This document shows, in pieces, positions 9,987 to 56,212 of a stretch of 57,472 nucleotides of DNA (its first letter is position 1; each line of letters begins with the position of its first letter). The notes under the pieces are model-generated. The model did not search any database. It saw only the letters and a program-made list of their open reading frames with translations, and had not been told where the DNA came from. The stretch is taken from positions 1-57,472 of the forward strand of contig CALPMC020000003.1 in assembly GCA_943324565.2 (NCBI GenBank), read 5' to 3'. This stretch comes from Chitinophaga pinensis. GTDB taxonomy: Bacteria > Bacteroidota > Bacteroidia > Flavobacteriales_D > Crocinitomicaceae. The translations under genes and the position numbers were made by a program.

Positions 9987-10023
9987 AATTAATGTACTTT
10001 ACAAAAATAAGGATTATTGTTAA

Positions 10024-10082
10024 TGGTTAACCTAACTGCTTATTAATTGCGAACTTAATAATTACGAATTGCAAACCGAGAT
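10024..10082 (-). repeat. remnant of the beta unit of the modular repeat family
   Basis: The stretch around GCTTATTAATTGCGAAC (10038-10054), followed by AATTACGAATTGCAAAC, matches the reverse complement of the 51-bp beta unit found at 33727-33930 and 45223-45368, with several substitutions. It is a single decayed copy in the gap between the carboxyltransferase gene and the HsdR_N gene. Confidence 0.6.
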
Positions 10083-10141: not shown

Positions 10142-11167
10142 TTACTCAGCAAAACATCCTTTTGTTATATCAAGAATCTGTTTACTAAGTGCTACAATGT
10201 TCTCGAGTTCATCAACTTGAACTTTTATTCCACTACCACCAACTTCAATAAAATGCTTATCCTTAACAGATGTAATTTTTGCAATTAATTTACGCTGATT
10301 ATCATCGACTAAAATATTGAAACTGTTTTTTTGGTCTCTGTATGAGATTCGAGAAAAATCAATTTTTTTCATTGAATTAATTATAATTGTTTTGACAGCA
10401 TGATAGATTTTTAACTCTTCACTTGTTGTAATAATTATATTTCCACTTTTCGATTCTTCTTCAATTAATTTTGGCAATGCTAATTGGATAGAATTGGAAT
10501 TTATTAAACTACGTAATTTATCTTTAATGTTGTCATTCATTCTTTTGCCAGCCATTCGTGAAAATATGGCTTTAATAAAGTCATCTGAAGGATTCAATAA
10601 TTCTTCAGATAAAGCATCGTTAAAACCTTCTAAAAAGAAAAAATCTTGGGCTTCTTCTAAAATAATCTTAATATCTGTAATGCTTTTATGAAACTGAGCA
10701 AATTGCTCAATTTTTACATCATCAATTTCAGAAAAATCAATAGTTAAAAAAGGATTTGAATGTAGTTTGTTCTTTTCCTCATATTCAGCATAGAAACGCC
10801 AATCTGTTCCATTTGTTAAAATTCCTATTTTTGAGCCCTCTGTATTGTTAAAATATCCATTTAATTGAGACGCTTCTTTATCCGTAAGTTTTTTGCCAAG
10901 TTTTTTACATTCAATTATTATTTCCGGTTTTTTGCCTTTTACAATTAATCCTAAATCTGCATAACCATTTTTTTGTCCCCAACCTGCATTAATTTCTGTC
11001 AACATGTCCTTATCATCGATTCTACTATAGCCCAAAATTTCTAACATTGGTTCAATTAAATACAATCGAGTTTGAGCTTCATTGGTACATTTTTCTTCTA
11101 ATCTAGAAAAATCAAACTTTGAAAACGATTTCTTAACAACGGCTAGAACTTTTTTATCTACAATCAT
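10142..11167 (-). CDS. solitary HsdR_N-type restriction-like protein
   Basis: The 341-aa protein has an N-terminal type I restriction HsdR_N-like nuclease domain. PD-(D/E)XK active-site candidates are Glu30 (NEAQTR), Asp71 in GYADLGL and the EXK pair Glu86/Lys88 in IIIECKK. There is no helicase part, and no hsdM or hsdS is adjacent, so it is not a complete type I system. The C-terminal 100 residues (ISYRDQKNSFNILVDDNQRK) form a second conserved domain seen in other stand-alone members. It could be a nuclease of a defence or phage-derived system, or have a host role. It has long AT-rich flanks and appears to be transcribed alone. Confidence 0.75.
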   Translation of the reverse strand: MIVDKKVLAVVKKSFSKFDFSRLEEKCTNEAQTRLYLIEPMLEILGYSRIDDKDMLTEINAGWGQKNGYADLGLIVKGKKPEIIIECKKLGKKLTDKEASQLNGYFNNTEGSKIGILTNGTDWRFYAEYEEKNKLHSNPFLTIDFSEIDDVKIEQFAQFHKSITDIKIILEEAQDFFFLEGFNDALSEELLNPSDDFIKAIFSRMAGKRMNDNIKDKLRSLINSNSIQLALPKLIEEESKSGNIIITTSEELKIYHAVKTIIINSMKKIDFSRISYRDQKNSFNILVDDNQRKLIAKITSVKDKHFIEVGGSGIKVQVDELENIVALSKQILDITKGCFAE

Positions 11168-31700: not shown

Positions 31701-32142
31701 CAGAAGTGAAAGGAATTGTTGATAACTGAACAGAACGTTGCTGAACACTTGCGTTTAACAATTCAATGTTTCGTTCATTATTGTGAATCGCATCTTGCAG
31801 CTGGAGTGTATTTTTTAATCTATCGGAAATCTCAGGGAAAAAATTACCAATAATATCAGAAGCTTGGTAGCGATTAATTCTTTTTCCAAAAGCGTATAAT
31901 TTACTCAGCGGAACTAAAATGTATTTGAATAAAATTACCAGGTTTATTCCTAAAAAACTAAAGAAAAGTAGAGCACGTGTAGTAGAACCAAAGCGACCAA
32001 GGTATTCTAGAGAAGTTGTTAGTAAAAAGGAAAAAAGTAAAATGCCAACAAAGAAAAACAAACCTTTGACGATTTCATTTTTATAAAACTTGCGTATGAA
32101 TGCATCAATTTGATCTAACAAACGTTCAAAAGAACTATTCAT
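28765..32142 (-). CDS. DUF4175 family membrane-anchored coiled-coil protein
   Basis: The 1125-aa protein has hydrophobic segments near residues 22-45, 53-75 and 155-176, then a beta-rich Ig-like region (about 190-500) and a very long charged helical region (about 500-870) with heptad patterns dominated by K, E, L and Q. Near residue 960 is a perfect GDKPG tandem repeat, followed by a helical C-terminus. This matches the Bacteroidota DUF4175 family. It is probably anchored in the inner membrane with a long periplasmic or cytoplasmic coiled coil. The gene leads a minus-strand run with the RsbW-like ATPase, ybeY and mnmG. Its function is unknown. Confidence 0.8.
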   Translation of the reverse strand: MNSSFERLLDQIDAFIRKFYKNEIVKGLFFFVGILLFSFLLTTSLEYLGRFGSTTRALLFFSFLGINLVILFKYILVPLSKLYAFGKRINRYQASDIIGNFFPEISDRLKNTLQLQDAIHNNERNIELLNASVQQRSVQLSTIPFTSAIDLKDNRKYLKFVAPLILILMALGIFVPSLLTQGTERVVNYDREFKIEAPFSFNVNTSNLQVEEGEDVPIELTLKGNFLPDKVYLVCENGRFLMERKSKNVFKSFIRKPKSSSNFYFVANEYESDPFKITVTGKSVVGKMEAQLLYPAYLGKQNEIIQNAGDLVVPEGTEITWNVATKNTKKVDLSWKGKVWYVSEFGFRISDKFKDNSKLRFSLTNKFTSKIDTFSSSISVIKDSHPSIYVSENIDSTKSGVRLFKGQVEDDYGLKSCYFVYEIISENGKKKENRILVRSLSTTQAQFDFGVDFSREELKLKDKIEYYFVVYDNDGVNGSKATRSQTYSYQLPTLSELNEKRELDQEKTKEDLNDVLKKTEDFQKKVEKLKKETMNSKSSDWNKMNQVNQLQEEQKDLIEKLQDIKEQMDQSTQEKNQLSEMDKQLLEKQEMIEKLLEELMDDELRKLLDDLKKLLEKNDKQELKEKMEELDQSAEDMKKQLDRSLEMLKRLQVNEKIDDIEKELKDLAKEQEELKKEIESKKIEKEEATKKQEDLNKKFDDLKKDLNDLKELNKELSNPMELGDTKEQEEQISKDMQDSKESLGGGKDKKAGEKQQSAADEMKKMADQLDKKQKDANKKQEEEDIDSLRAILESLMILSFDQEENMNRFARVNMNDPSYIKLGKRQRRIIDDTKIVKDSLLALAKRQPKIASFVDKELNTIESNHSKSIESIDDHKKKELNKYQQIVMTSYNNLALLLNEALQSMQSQMQSEKEGSGSCDKPGKGRPKPGSQLNNQDMKEMLKKQLEQMQKGPNPGGDKPGDKPGDKPGDKPGGKPGNSGQSMLGLGNKEIAKMAAEQTAIRQKLEQMRNDLNKEGKGLGNKLNPLIKELEEQERSLINKSINRETINRQRDILTRLLESEKALLERGFEEKRESKSGKDLNNGNKIIFEEYNKEKLKQVELLRSIDPNYRKYFKDKANQYFNQN

Positions 32143-32849
32143 ATTTTTAATTTCTTAAAGTGTTGATAACTGACAAATAACTAACGAAAAGTTTTTATTT
32201 CTGTTCTAACAAAAAATGTGCAACTTGTACACTGTTACGAAATTAGAATTTATCTCTTGAGTAATCGATTTCACTTAGGATTATTTAACGGTGATATAAA
32301 AGTAATTCAAAAATCCTAAATCGAAAGTTTTCCAAGATTTAGCTTATCTATTATAATATATTTTTTTAAAATTAATTTATAAAGAAATTGGTTGTTATTA
32401 TTAAGGCTGTTCATTTGTGTAAAGAAAAAAAGGTCTTTCCTTGCTTTTAAAAATATTAAAAATGACCGCTTGGTTATGAACAGTTAGAAAGTGGTTTAAT
32501 TGCTTTTAAAACAACTAATTAAATACTAATTAACAATTCGATATTTTTTAGTTAATATGGATAAAAAAAAGTGATTGTTAATAACGTTTTGGTGGATAAA
32601 GTGTGATGAAATCACCCAAAAAAAGAGGCTAACTTTTATTGTCAATTGAATTCAATTTTGGTTTGGAATAATAAATTTAAAAAGCAAGTTTTTCTTTTTA
32701 AAAGTTACGAACGCTTATTAACAATTCACGCACAAAAACTGATAATAACTCATTTTATAGAATCAAGTAAATACAAGGATTTTGAACGGAATGAAAACAC
32801 GTTTTGTTTATAACTAGGTTGAAATGTGGATAAGGGAATTTCACTTGTT
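32143..32849. other. candidate chromosomal replication origin: AT-rich DNA with clustered DnaA-box-like sites
   Basis: This 707-bp stretch has no gene. It holds one perfect DnaA box (TGTGGATAA at 32825-32833), one TGTTGATAA at 32161-32169 (that is, TTATCAACA), three TTATNAACA-type sites (32474-32482, 32576-32584 reversed, 32715-32723) and two single-mismatch boxes (32556-32564, 32591-32599). An A/T-only run at about 32343-32385 could be an unwinding element. It lies 4.2-5 kb from two parS sites and near mnmG, both often close to oriC. Against it: genes on both sides are mostly on the same strand, so no clear switch in coding direction marks an origin. Confidence 0.4.
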
Positions 32850-33120
32850 ATTTTGGAAAAGAAGCGGTATTTATCACGTTGGGGTAAATAAAATTGCTAA
32901 TTACAAACTCAGAATTGCGAACGTATTTCATTTGCGATTTTGGAAAAGAAGTGGTATTCATTTCTTTAAGGTTAATTTAATTGCTAATTGCAAACTCAGA
33001 ATTGCGAACGTTATTCTCTAACGATTTTGGAAAAAAAGGGTATCTTATATTCAAAATTAATAAGCGTTTTGGTTATCCGTTCGCAATTAGCAATTCTTAG
33101 CTCGCAATTAATAAGCGTTA
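32850..33120 (+). repeat. modular repeat array L: alpha, alpha, truncated alpha, beta, partial beta
   Basis: Two 87-bp alpha units (32850-32936, 32937-33023), each starting ATTTTGGAAAAGAAG and carrying CTCAGAATTGCGAACG, are followed by a 31-bp truncated alpha (33024-33054), a 51-bp beta unit (33055-33105, starting AATTAATAAGCG) and the first 14-15 bp of another beta (33106-33120). The TAA stop of the minus-strand four-helix-bundle gene (33118-33120) falls on the last bases of the partial beta. Unit boundaries were counted base by base. Confidence 0.88.
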
Positions 33121-33483
33121 AGCGAGTCCATTTCTCTCTTTTGTTGTTTTTATTATGCTTGTTAACAATCTTAATAGTTCTTCACAGTCTTTTAATAATG
33201 GTTTGGAGGTAGATGAAGATAAATAATCTGTTGCACCTAAAAGTTTAATCCAATAAATAGATTCATTTGCTTCTTTTCGTGAGATTGAAAGCTTGTGTAC
33301 AAAATCTTTAATTGATTGGCTATGTTCAGCTTCAGTTATGTTCGCACCAATTGAAGTTCCAGATCTTAAAAGTTGTTTTGATAAAATAAATTCACGTTTT
33401 GAATTAGTTAATTCCTTGTAGGTTTCAATGATTTGAATTGAAAAATTGAAGCTTTTAGTTTGAATAATACTCTCTGTTTTCAT
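33118..33483 (-). CDS. S23-type four-helix-bundle protein
   Basis: The 121-aa protein matches the 23S rRNA intervening-sequence protein family (TIGR02436). Conserved features are an N-terminal helix, then LRSGTSIGANITEAEHSQSI near 41-60, DFVHKLSISRKEANESIYWI near 62-81 and an amphipathic last helix. The family forms oligomers and includes the avd protein of diversity-generating retroelements, which suggests nucleic-acid binding; its cellular role is otherwise unknown. It sits between two arrays of a modular repeat, with its stop codon at the edge of array L and array R about 70 bp upstream of its start. No rRNA is near. Confidence 0.9.
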   Translation of the reverse strand: MKTESIIQTKSFNFSIQIIETYKELTNSKREFILSKQLLRSGTSIGANITEAEHSQSIKDFVHKLSISRKEANESIYWIKLLGATDYLSSSTSKPLLKDCEELLRLLTSIIKTTKERNGLA

Positions 33484-33555
33484 TACTTTTTTTACATTAA
33501 GATAGTGAAAAAGATAAGTTTTTGAACTTTTTAATGTGAAATATTTGTTCGAGAA

Positions 33556-33930
33556 GTTTAATTAATTGCTAATTACGAACTCAGAATTACGAACGTTTTT
33601 CATTAACGATGCTAGAAAAGAAGTTGTATTCACCACTGTGAGGTTAATTTAATTGCTAATTACAAACTCAGAATTGCGAACGTTATTCTCTAACGATTTT
33701 GGAAAAAAATGGTATCTTATATTCAAAATTAATAAGCGTTTTGGTTATCCGTTCGTAATTTGCAATTCTTCGTTCGTAATTAATAAGCGTTTTGGTTATC
33801 CGTTCGCAATTCGCAATTTTTAGCTTGCAATTAATAAGCATTACGGTTATTCGTTCGCAATTTGCAATTCTTAGCTCGCAATTAATAAGCATTACGGTTA
33901 TTCGTTCGCAATTCGCAATTCTTAGCTTGC
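33556..33930 (+). repeat. modular repeat array R: partial alpha, alpha, truncated alpha, four beta units
   Basis: A partial alpha (about 33556-33608) and a full 87-bp alpha (33609-33695) lead into the same truncated alpha (33696-33726) as in array L. Four head-to-tail 51-bp beta units then follow at 33727, 33778, 33829 and 33880, each starting AATTAATAAGC. They diverge by a few bases (GCGTTTTGG against GCATTACGG), so units 1-2 and 3-4 form two subtypes. The array ends at the stop codon of the next gene, whose TAA (33933-33935) lies in the AATTA that would begin a fifth beta. Confidence 0.9.
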
Positions 33931-33932
33931 AA

Positions 33933-34481
33933 TTATTTTTCTTTCTCCTTCTTCTTCACCTCTCTGTCATTTACCAAAACGAATCTTGCGCTTAAGAAAA
34001 TATTGTTTGCCGGGAAGTAATTAGTTGAACTTTTGCGCATCGGAAACAAAAATTGATAGCCTGTTTGTAAATGAATTTGCCAAACTTTATAACCTAAAAC
34101 GGGCGTGAAACCAAAGCGGTATTTTTCGAAGTTGGTTCTTGCACAAATTGTTGCCCCATAAGTTAAACTTATATTATCTTTACGAAACCAATACCCCATA
34201 TCGTAACCTAAAATAGGGTTCCAATTAGAAAAATCGTATGAATAATTGACTCCGAAGTGAAAAGCATTTGTTGATGGCGATTTTAGTTTTCCTTGTTTCC
34301 GTTGACGTTCCAAACCAATTTCACCGGCATAAAATCGACCACTTTGAACACCAAAATAAGGTCCTGTTTTGACAATTGTTTTTTCAATTTTCTTATCACC
34401 AAAAAGCTGTGCGCTTAGTTGGAAATGAACCAAACTAAAAAGAATAAAAAGACTATTTACCGTATTTCTCATGAATTTCAA
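33933..34481 (-). CDS. hypothetical outer-membrane beta-barrel-like protein, 182 aa
   Basis: A signal peptide (MRNTVNSLFILFSLVHFQLSA-Q) precedes alternating hydrophobic/polar strands with Gly and aromatic residues (GPYFGVQSGRFYAGEIGLE, FHFGVNYSYDFS, PILGYDMGYWF, FTPVLGYKVWQIHLQTGYQF), as in small outer-membrane barrels. The C-terminus is basic and lacks the usual terminal Phe. Two starts are possible: 34481 (MKF) and 34472 (MRN); both overlap the end of cvpA by 20-29 bp, so translation is coupled. Beta repeats begin at its stop codon. No specific family is recognised. Confidence 0.6.
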   Translation of the reverse strand: MKFMRNTVNSLFILFSLVHFQLSAQLFGDKKIEKTIVKTGPYFGVQSGRFYAGEIGLERQRKQGKLKSPSTNAFHFGVNYSYDFSNWNPILGYDMGYWFRKDNISLTYGATICARTNFEKYRFGFTPVLGYKVWQIHLQTGYQFLFPMRKSSTNYFPANNIFLSARFVLVNDREVKKKEKEK

Positions 34482-35085
34482 TTACTGTTTTAACATCTTG
34501 TGCATCTATACCTAATGAATCGGCAATTGTTCTAGCTCTTTGCACTTCATCATAGGTCATTTTGGCTTCGTTGGCTGTTTGTTGAATCTCGATAACGTTA
34601 ATGAGTTCGGTATGTTTCACTCCTGGAAGCGAATATTTTAAAACACCTGTATTAAGCGCATACATAAACGACTTTTCTTTGTTTGATTTCTTAATTATCT
34701 TCTCCTCTTTATCAAAGGAAACTAAGAAAACAAGAACGCAAGCGGTCAAATAAAGCCACTTAAAAACGCCAAGTGTTGCTCCAACAACTTTATTAAAAGC
34801 GGATAATTGTGCGATTTTTAACACTTGCTCAAGTGCTTTTCCTCCAAAATAAACCATTGCACCCACCAATAAAAACAACACAATAAAACTAATAGCTGGC
34901 ATATATGAATGTGCTTCTTTCCCAAATTCCATATACTTTGAAAATTTATCCGAAAAGTTAAAAGCAGCATACAATCCAACAACAAGCGCTAAAATTGTAA
35001 AAAGCTCCATAATAAAACCTTTTTGAAATCCTTTCCAAGCGCCATAAAGCAACGGAAGAACCAATAAGATATCTAAAATTTCCAT
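34453..35085 (-). CDS. CvpA family membrane protein
   Basis: The 210-aa protein has four membrane segments and the family opening MEILDILLVLPLLYGAWKGF with the conserved G-x-x-x-G-F. CvpA family members affect colicin V production or biofilm and cell-envelope traits; the molecular role is uncertain. I place the start at 35085, because upstream in-frame sequence to 35319 is Cys- and Phe-rich, not family-like, and would overlap the divergent tadA gene. The C-terminal soluble tail (about 165-210) is helical and acidic. Confidence 0.85.
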   Translation of the reverse strand: MEILDILLVLPLLYGAWKGFQKGFIMELFTILALVVGLYAAFNFSDKFSKYMEFGKEAHSYMPAISFIVLFLLVGAMVYFGGKALEQVLKIAQLSAFNKVVGATLGVFKWLYLTACVLVFLVSFDKEEKIIKKSNKEKSFMYALNTGVLKYSLPGVKHTELINVIEIQQTANEAKMTYDEVQRARTIADSLGIDAQDVKTVIEIHEKYGK

Positions 35086-45161: not shown

Positions 45162-45190
45162 TTGTTTTGTTTTTGTAAAAGTAGGAATAA

Positions 45191-45487
45191 TTGCAAATGG
45201 ATTACCATAACGCTTATTAATTGCAAACGAAGAATTGCGAATGGATAACCGTAATGCTTATTAATTGCGAGCTAAGAATTGCAAATTGCAAACGGATTGC
45301 CATAATGCTTGGTAATTACAAACCAAAAATTGCATATTGCGAACGGATAACCAAAACGCTTATTAATTGCGAATCTAAGATACCACTTCTTTTCCAAAAT
45401 CGTTAGTGAATAACGTTCGCAATTCTTAACTTGCAATTCGCAATTAAATTAACCTCAACGTGATAAATACCACTTCTTTTCCAAAAT
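45191..45487 (-). repeat. modular repeat array C, inverted relative to arrays L and R
   Basis: Read on the minus strand it runs alpha (45401-45487, 87 bp), truncated alpha (45369-45400), then beta units at 45318-45368 and 45267-45317 (51 bp each), 45223-45266 (44 bp, lacking 7 bp of one AATTGC segment) and 45191-45222 (partial). The order matches arrays L and R. The alpha is close to the first alpha of array L. It fills most of the gap between the OmpA-like gene and rpiB. Confidence 0.88.
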
Positions 45488-45517
45488 CAATAGAGAAAAA
45501 GTTTAGCTGTTAAAAAA

Positions 45518-56001: not shown

Positions 56002-56212
56002 TTACCTTGTGACGTGATTTAAAACAACACACAAAATTAAGTTATTCTTTTATAATTCGGTCGTTCCGTTTTTTAGAGCTTCTTTAAAAAGGCGAAATTT
56101 AAAGAATTTCATATAGAAAATAGAATAAGTGCTTGTAAAACTTTCTTACTTTTTAAACTTCGCTTTCAAGCTAAATTCTCAATTTTACGTTCTCAATTTC
56201 ACATTTAATACG

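Follow-up and report, generated by a model that had tools for sequence, protein, structure and literature searches.

Among the closest described systems to the locus reported here is the 23S rRNA intervening sequence (IVS) with an S23 ORF, as in Coxiella and Leptospira, where inverted repeats that pair into a stem enclose the gene for a protein of the same family. For the Coxiella IVS, the accessible portion of one report describes GACAGAT heptamers that lie in tandem ahead of the start of S23 (PMC4990558). The unit described below differs from it in lying between protein genes, in having arms made of several 7-nt words with a dialect of their own, and in the existence of solo arrays. Heptameric repeats are a second point of comparison, having likewise a 7-nt unit and an intergenic position, often between codirectional genes. 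The excerpts consulted give the words GGGAATC for Xanthomonas and GGGGATT for Nostoc (PMC4692102) and TAACTGA for the repeats of Beggiatoaceae (PMC4679880), and count 70 cases of paired inverted heptamer repeats in Xcc and 75 in Xac (PMC4692102). However, one word is used per genome there, whereas here there is one per S23 gene, and in the available parts of both papers (PMC4692102, PMC4679880) the term S23 is absent and no partner protein is named.

Among openly licensed papers, we found none joining S23 with heptamer repeats, the Coxiella heptamers excepted. To our knowledge, the heptamer repeats of Xanthomonas, Nostoc and Beggiatoaceae have no proven partner protein, and we know of no function for the S23 proteins, whose structures were solved about two decades ago. 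REP sequences and their RAYT transposase associate a protein gene with dispersed intergenic repeats, as does the unit of S23 gene and arrays, but S23 matches PF05635 only, and a repeat of the type described here is kept by its period and not as one palindromic sequence. Finally, Avd of diversity-generating retroelements (DGRs), a pentamer, has the same fold, at a TM-score of 0.66-0.75 between our model and the Avd entries 4DWL and 8UB7; it differs in working with a reverse transcriptase and TR/VR repeats, and its Foldseek E-value is 0.04 or worse.

The locus lies in a stretch of 57,472 nucleotides, which is called the window here. Its relevant features are the following:

10016..10079, minus strand: short solo array in the window dialect, recognised by its sequence match to array R
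32838..33120, plus strand: array L, 3' of the S23 gene in the S23 sense, with three five-heptad cores; lag 7 beyond 500/500 shuffles
32892..33119, plus strand: copy 1 of a 228-nt direct repeat, within array L, 91% identical to copy 2
33118..33483, minus strand: S23 (PF05635/TIGR02436) four-helix-bundle gene, 121 aa, from profile matches and a structure model
33540..33940, plus strand: array R, 5' of the S23 gene in the S23 sense, with six five-heptad cores, some 51 bp apart; lag 7 beyond 500/500 shuffles
33564..33791, plus strand: copy 2 of the 228-nt direct repeat, within array R, its start 672 bp from the start of copy 1
33801..33835, plus strand: example repeat core of five 7-nt words, CGTTCGC AATTCGC AATTTTT AGCTTGC AATTAAT
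45188..45500, minus strand: solo array of the window repeat, 82% identical to array R; its neighbours are two minus-strand genes, and no S23 gene accompanies it; lag 7 beyond 500/500 shuffles

An earlier note on this DNA had placed a 121-aa protein of the TIGR02436 type between two arrays of one repeat in the same orientation. The ORF at 33118-33483 (minus strand) bears this out in profile searches against PF05635 (94.3 bits, cut-off 33.8, E 6.5e-27) and TIGR02436 (105.8 bits, cut-off 24, E 1.3e-30), and arrays L and R indeed have the 228-nt stretch in common. The overlap of the stop codon with the end of a repeat was also read correctly, the codon falling on the final 2 nt of the L copy, and array R does begin shortly upstream of the gene, with heptads from about 33561, roughly 80 nt from the start codon at 33483. 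The predicted monomer has four helices (mean pLDDT 95.8) and resembles 2RLD in Foldseek (TM 0.84-0.87, about 50% identity), 2GSC being matched as well. The crystal entries of these two solved relatives contain five chains each, and by analogy the protein is likely a pentamer.

The gene stands in a row of same-strand genes (CvpA-like, hypothetical, S23, DUF4175), with protein genes on both sides and no rRNA gene at the locus. A search of Rfam with positions 32000-34600 at E<=0.1 gave no match to a known RNA family. Concerning a transposase, the gene inside the arrays matches PF05635 only, and no reverse transcriptase was detected among the four window proteins searched against Pfam. An anti-phage defence reading of the locus was dropped, PADLOC giving no match.

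Arrays L and R together contain nine repeat cores, each of 33-35 nt, i.e. five 7-nt words, and lag 7 is the only lag among 3-21 that none of 500 dinucleotide shuffles reached in them. The cores are not copies of one near-perfect unit but degenerate heptads that have mainly AATT in common, and the repeat as a whole is a degenerate heptad array broken up by spacers. The arms are mainly direct repeats (inverted score 29, direct score 260). In the scan described below, the 200-nt flanks of this gene reach z 1.1 and 1.3, under the cut-off of z>=4, the whole arrays being 7-periodic. Elsewhere in the window, a short heptad-like run (AATTCTCAATTTTACGTTCTCAATTTCACATT) is present at 56174-56205, away from any S23 gene.

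Matches to array R occur at 13 places in its own genome, array R included, and 24 of the 25 array places examined lie outside called ORFs. The repeat is local: only 4 of the 41 genus genomes carry it at E<=0.001, and its alpha pattern is missing within 1.5 kb of the four further S23 loci of the same genome (0/4), each of which by eye has separate words; of the three own-genome genes tested besides the window gene, two stay below z>=4 in their 200-nt flanks. An accidental co-location of gene and repeat would account for this restricted distribution. Against it, the repeat-bearing genomes all have 4-6 S23 genes, whereas any S23 gene is present in 13 of the 41 (one genome's S23 being below the family cut-off), and the period counts from the family and from plasmids given below make an accident scarcely credible. 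Kinship may be part of the cause of the co-occurrence among the 41 genomes.

One fixed repeat serving all S23 proteins was rejected, as 0/56 same-genome cross comparisons reached a score of 24 and the loci of the window's own genome differ. Arrays spread all over S23-bearing genomes were likewise hardly seen, few word-like arrays being common to gaps in 400 kb each of G112 and G118. In genomes without S23, the repeats common to gaps in G090 (260 kb) resemble other families, and in G021 (400 kb) no gap-shared repeats were found at 40 bits. The scan of genome contigs gave two loci only, and phage records two matches only.

Some individual sites show arrays in altered states. In the own genome, the S23 copy L002 (G000:C68) has an in-frame TAA and arms with a TGATAACTG-like dialect, and represents a decaying unit. 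Two dialects adjoin in one array at L272:5235-5452 and at L263:4456-4522, with AATTGCG words beside CGGACTT words. In the near relative G118 (L278, G118:C7:12400-12900), the sequences of window 45519 and of window 33898 adjoin each other, and a worn remnant of an array marks the joint; this rearrangement ends at two oppositely oriented arrays, the outcome expected of recombination between them. The reciprocal joint was not found in G118, where the flank of the S23 site on G118:C35 is fused to window 50119 instead. For the window locus, the same genome offers no usable empty site, the two flanks being on different contigs. In G143:C8 (L264:5200-6200), the site of the solo array at 45188-45500 is occupied instead by a short array in that dialect together with a small additional gene.

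TIGR02436 matches are present in 102 of the 120 family genomes. The survey sample consists of 95 loci, namely the 90 best among the matches listed by E-value, own-genome rows being skipped, and five loci of the own genome; it is biased toward model-like S23. These loci contain 97 S23 ORFs, one locus having none (L064) and three having two. The first S23 profile had also caught SufB-like proteins of 481-511 aa (11 of 107 ORFs), none with an inverted score >=30, which were removed from later counts. Left out before the counts were ORFs under 105 aa, including the broken L002, and three S23 ORFs whose protein duplicated that of another one.

Among S23 genes with two called neighbours, 80/90 are flanked by same-strand genes and 77 of these 80 are codirectional with them; for control ORFs the figures are 237/390 and 204/237. 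Several sites are recurrent, which from their sequences we take to be sdhA/sdhB (19), sufB/sufC (13), fadJ/fadA (12), panB/rluD (4), hisH/hisA (3) and dinB/dnaE (3), and 30 contexts occur once. In the S23 tree, each recurrent site forms one clade, fadJ/fadA (11 rows) with weaker support (82/76), and 40 of the 93 rows fall outside any group. The protein is kept under purifying selection, because dN/dS is low in most close pairs: out of 17 pairs tried, 14 gave finite values, of which 12 are <=0.18 and the other two 0.28 and 0.60.

The flanks of these genes are marked by a period of seven. Autocorrelation at lag 7 is 0.394 in S23 flanks against 0.298 in controls, followed more weakly by lags 8, 14, 15, 16 and 21. 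Among 139 S23 flanks of at least 40 nt, 38 have lag 7 as the best one, 15 have lag 8, 13 have lag 15 and 64 have no best lag; the corresponding numbers for 213 control flanks are 4, 3, 2 and 195. In an array scan of 200-nt flanks, with switches between 7 and 8 allowed and a threshold of z>=4, at least one flank has an array in 70/89 S23 genes versus 32/286 control ORFs, and both flanks do in 23/89 versus 4/286. Codirectional spacers give 81/136 next to S23 genes against 9/111 for the other spacers of the same loci. On the same 136 spacers, lags 5/6 and 9/10 yield 0 arrays and 10/11 yields 1, and the scans overlapping 7/8 by one lag yield 51 (6/7) and 22 (8/9). The commonest array length in the family is 35-42 nt (22/106), with a 5-95% range of 22-134 nt.

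S23 genes are thus shown to be associated with 7-nt-periodic arrays whose words, or dialect, tend to vary among the genes. The association is much stronger than earlier proposed, but it goes by period and not by one repeat. The earlier note had suggested a protein-plus-repeat unit, which is partly supported, and had proposed to look for an enrichment of alpha/beta-like repeats near S23 genes relative to random intergenic regions: enrichment holds for a 7-nt period with words that vary by gene, and fails for a shared alpha/beta repeat, given its absence from the other own loci and its presence in few genus genomes.

The same signal was found on plasmids, where S23 loci were collected by tblastn, 10 of 26 and 12 of 39 records being picked by organism before their flanks were viewed. 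At least one array at z>=4 is present in 20 of these 22 loci and two arrays in 16. The array-positive loci come from Bacteroidota, Spirochaetota, Cyanobacteriota, Chloroflexota, Bacillota, Pseudomonadota and Gemmatimonadota, each phylum sampled by one locus except Cyanobacteriota; the ends of the S23 gene were set by hand where unannotated, in Monoglobus, Azospirillum and Gemmatirosa. The two loci without an array at z>=4 are those of Calothrix PCC 7716 and Pseudanabaena PCC 7367. Other gaps of the plasmid loci have arrays in 8/34 cases, and in six of these eight the words by eye resemble those of the nearby S23 gene. Three arrays were counted on pANA02 and three on pEu1, in the first 50 kb of each plasmid, and in both cases two of the three border the S23 gene; the third consists of S23-flank words in pEu1 and of different words in pANA02. 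Other lag pairs yield 0 to 4 arrays on these stretches, and the array count alone is not period-specific on pANA02, because 9/10 also yields 3 there. On the spacer, flank and plasmid-locus counts, chance or artefact was rejected as the source of the association.

Plain replication slippage could also produce heptamer arrays in AT-rich spacers, S23 genes merely tolerating them, and heptamer repeats are stated in the accessible part of one paper to be over-represented in several genomes, with slippage proposed as the origin (PMC4692102). Such a process is very unlikely to be the explanation here, considering the scarcity of arrays in the other codirectional spacers of the same loci and the position of two of the three arrays at the one S23 gene on both plasmid stretches.

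The plasmid S23 genes are found between cas2 and cas1, csx2 and cas1, cas6 and cas4, cas10 and cmr3, or hsdS and hsdR, or after a helicase gene. On cyanobacterial plasmids they lie within CRISPR-Cas gene sets at L283, L284, L285, L290, L292 and L296. As far as the excerpt goes, a published account lists 18 S23 genes in cas loci and records them as an associated function (PMC3936711); insertion of a unit of S23 gene and arrays may instead explain their presence. As a single case, the gap 3' of the DGR avd gene (10186-10539) on pANA02 (L302:9985-10739) has a 7/8-nt array (z 6.0), the 5' flank being at z 0.3. The same plasmid harbors a tandem TCCATATT array with an 8-nt unit at L302:30557-30613, away from its S23 gene.

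The two arms of a locus are inverted more often than direct. Among 72 loci, arm scores of at least 30 are reached in inverted orientation by 30 and in direct orientation by 13, the window among the latter; in the uncleaned first run, an inverted score >=30 was obtained for 50/107 ORFs, 11 of the 107 being false, against 8/539 controls. At sdhA/sdhB, the words vary among genomes, yet 5' arms match their own 3' arms (25.9, against 19.1, sd 1.33, after permutation of the arms inside this site; 0/2000), and the S23 gene is inherited vertically while the words change. Own-arm matching exceeds permutation also at fadJ/fadA (11/2000 permutations) and over all shared sites (29.1 versus 23.3; 0/2000), while sufB/sufC shows no excess (1112/2000 permutations). 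Direct-orientation arm scores over all sites are above permutation as well. Word profiles cluster by S23 clade (0.58 versus 0.17, 0/1000 permutations), with a TAG core in 18/19 sdh loci and AGA in 10/10 fad loci, those of hisH/hisA being unclustered (0.21 versus 0.25). Across contexts, the word is linked only weakly to the S23 sequence (r 0.09, 4/500), and a code of long range was set aside.

The two arms also differ in sequence, the 5' arms leaning to G and TTAG and the 3' arms to C and CTAA, with both leans in 40/72 loci. Upon folding, at least 10 pairs are predicted across the S23 frame with the own arm in 53/72 loci and with a foreign arm in 25/72 (Wilcoxon P 9e-9), and 80 pairs between R and L are predicted in the window even though its arms are mainly direct repeats. 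The predicted fold has the shape of the rRNA IVS, and these pairings suit an mRNA intervening sequence, in which pairing of the arms into double-stranded RNA would put the S23 frame outside a polycistronic transcript, RNase III cutting the stem as in rRNA IVS elements and the protein having no need to contact the repeats. The prevalence of codirectional same-strand neighbours in the family and the persistence of arm matching as words change point the same way, as do the terminal inverted repeats and RNase III cleavage described for the Coxiella IVS in the portion available (PMC4990558). However, a stem requires complementarity and not a 7-nt period, which is the strongest signal; S23 is opposite to both neighbours in 4 of the 20 plasmid loci with both annotated; and direct arms exist, those of the window included. 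We regard this account as possible but rather doubtful.

Two sites bear on how the units come and go. At the orthologous site of G143 (84% complete), an array is present without S23, with both neighbours on one contig, which represents either the state before arrival of the gene or its loss between direct repeats. In G021, which lacks S23, dinB and dnaE are 21 bp apart with no array, this being the sole shared site recovered there with both genes; the junction is too diverged from its S23-bearing relatives for a target-site duplication to be read.

The reading that we prefer, and to which we give an even chance, is that the S23 gene and its 7-nt arrays form a protein-plus-repeat unit in which the likely pentamer binds about one word per subunit. 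A fixed period with free words suggests a ruler, for which a five-fold ring on five-word cores is the simplest candidate. The S23 protein would bind its flanking arrays, one 7-nt word being contacted by each subunit and one pentamer occupying each five-word core. Gene and arrays would move together, mostly into gaps between co-transcribed genes, and the two arms could pair in RNA with the S23 frame looped out. Each dialect would mirror what its own S23 recognises, and a solo array would be a copy deposited at another place. This reading is based on the period counts in the family and in seven phyla, the position of arrays at the S23 gene on both plasmid stretches, the arms that change words together, the word core kept within S23 clades, the purifying selection, the array-only and empty sites and the solo arrays of the same dialect, and also on the five chains of both solved relatives, the five words of the window cores and the commonest array length in the family. 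TRAP offers a working model of an identical-subunit ring matched to evenly spaced short words, as outlined in the available part of a paper (PMC7430163), but it has another fold and 11 subunits, whereas the S23 word varies by gene and S23 binding is predicted.

Several observations count against the protein-plus-repeat unit. The window gene and two of the three other own-genome genes are below z>=4, two of the 22 plasmid loci fail, and controls have arrays too, both ORFs (32/286) and plasmid gaps (8/34). Array lengths are widely spread, sufB/sufC gives no excess of own-arm matching and hisH/hisA no clustering of words, direct-orientation matching is also above permutation, the cross-context link to words is at r 0.09, the samples from relatives gave little sign of a genome-wide spread like that over the 13 places of the own genome, and the heptamer repeats of Xanthomonas and Nostoc prefer four units, not five, according to the excerpt (PMC4692102). 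Because the rRNA location of the IVS, the transposase and fixed sequence of REP and the fixed heptamer unit are not found here, the unit of S23 gene and arrays is set apart as a new kind, with a predicted mechanism.

A further alternative makes the protein the author of its repeats: the ring would mark off 7-nt steps as strands are copied or slip, and the words would be whatever happened to be copied. A fixed period with free words across seven phyla, the joint rewriting of both arms at one site and the mixing of dialects inside one array (L272) are in line with it. It seems improbable to us, as PF05635 has no known or apparent enzymatic activity and the core conserved within clades indicates recognition as well. 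In its broadest form, which we offer as a conjecture with little likelihood of being right, the five-subunit S23 ring would be a molecular ruler that writes, copies and spreads its own array, and would define a new class of elements in at least seven phyla, with the rRNA IVS as its rRNA-borne branch and the heptamers of Xanthomonas, Nostoc and Beggiatoaceae as solo products.

A repeat family defined by its period and not by its sequence would be missed by sequence-based repeat finders. If the link between protein and arrays holds, S23 genes in CRISPR and restriction operons would be passengers and not parts of these systems, and the function of S23 and the heptamer repeats would explain each other.
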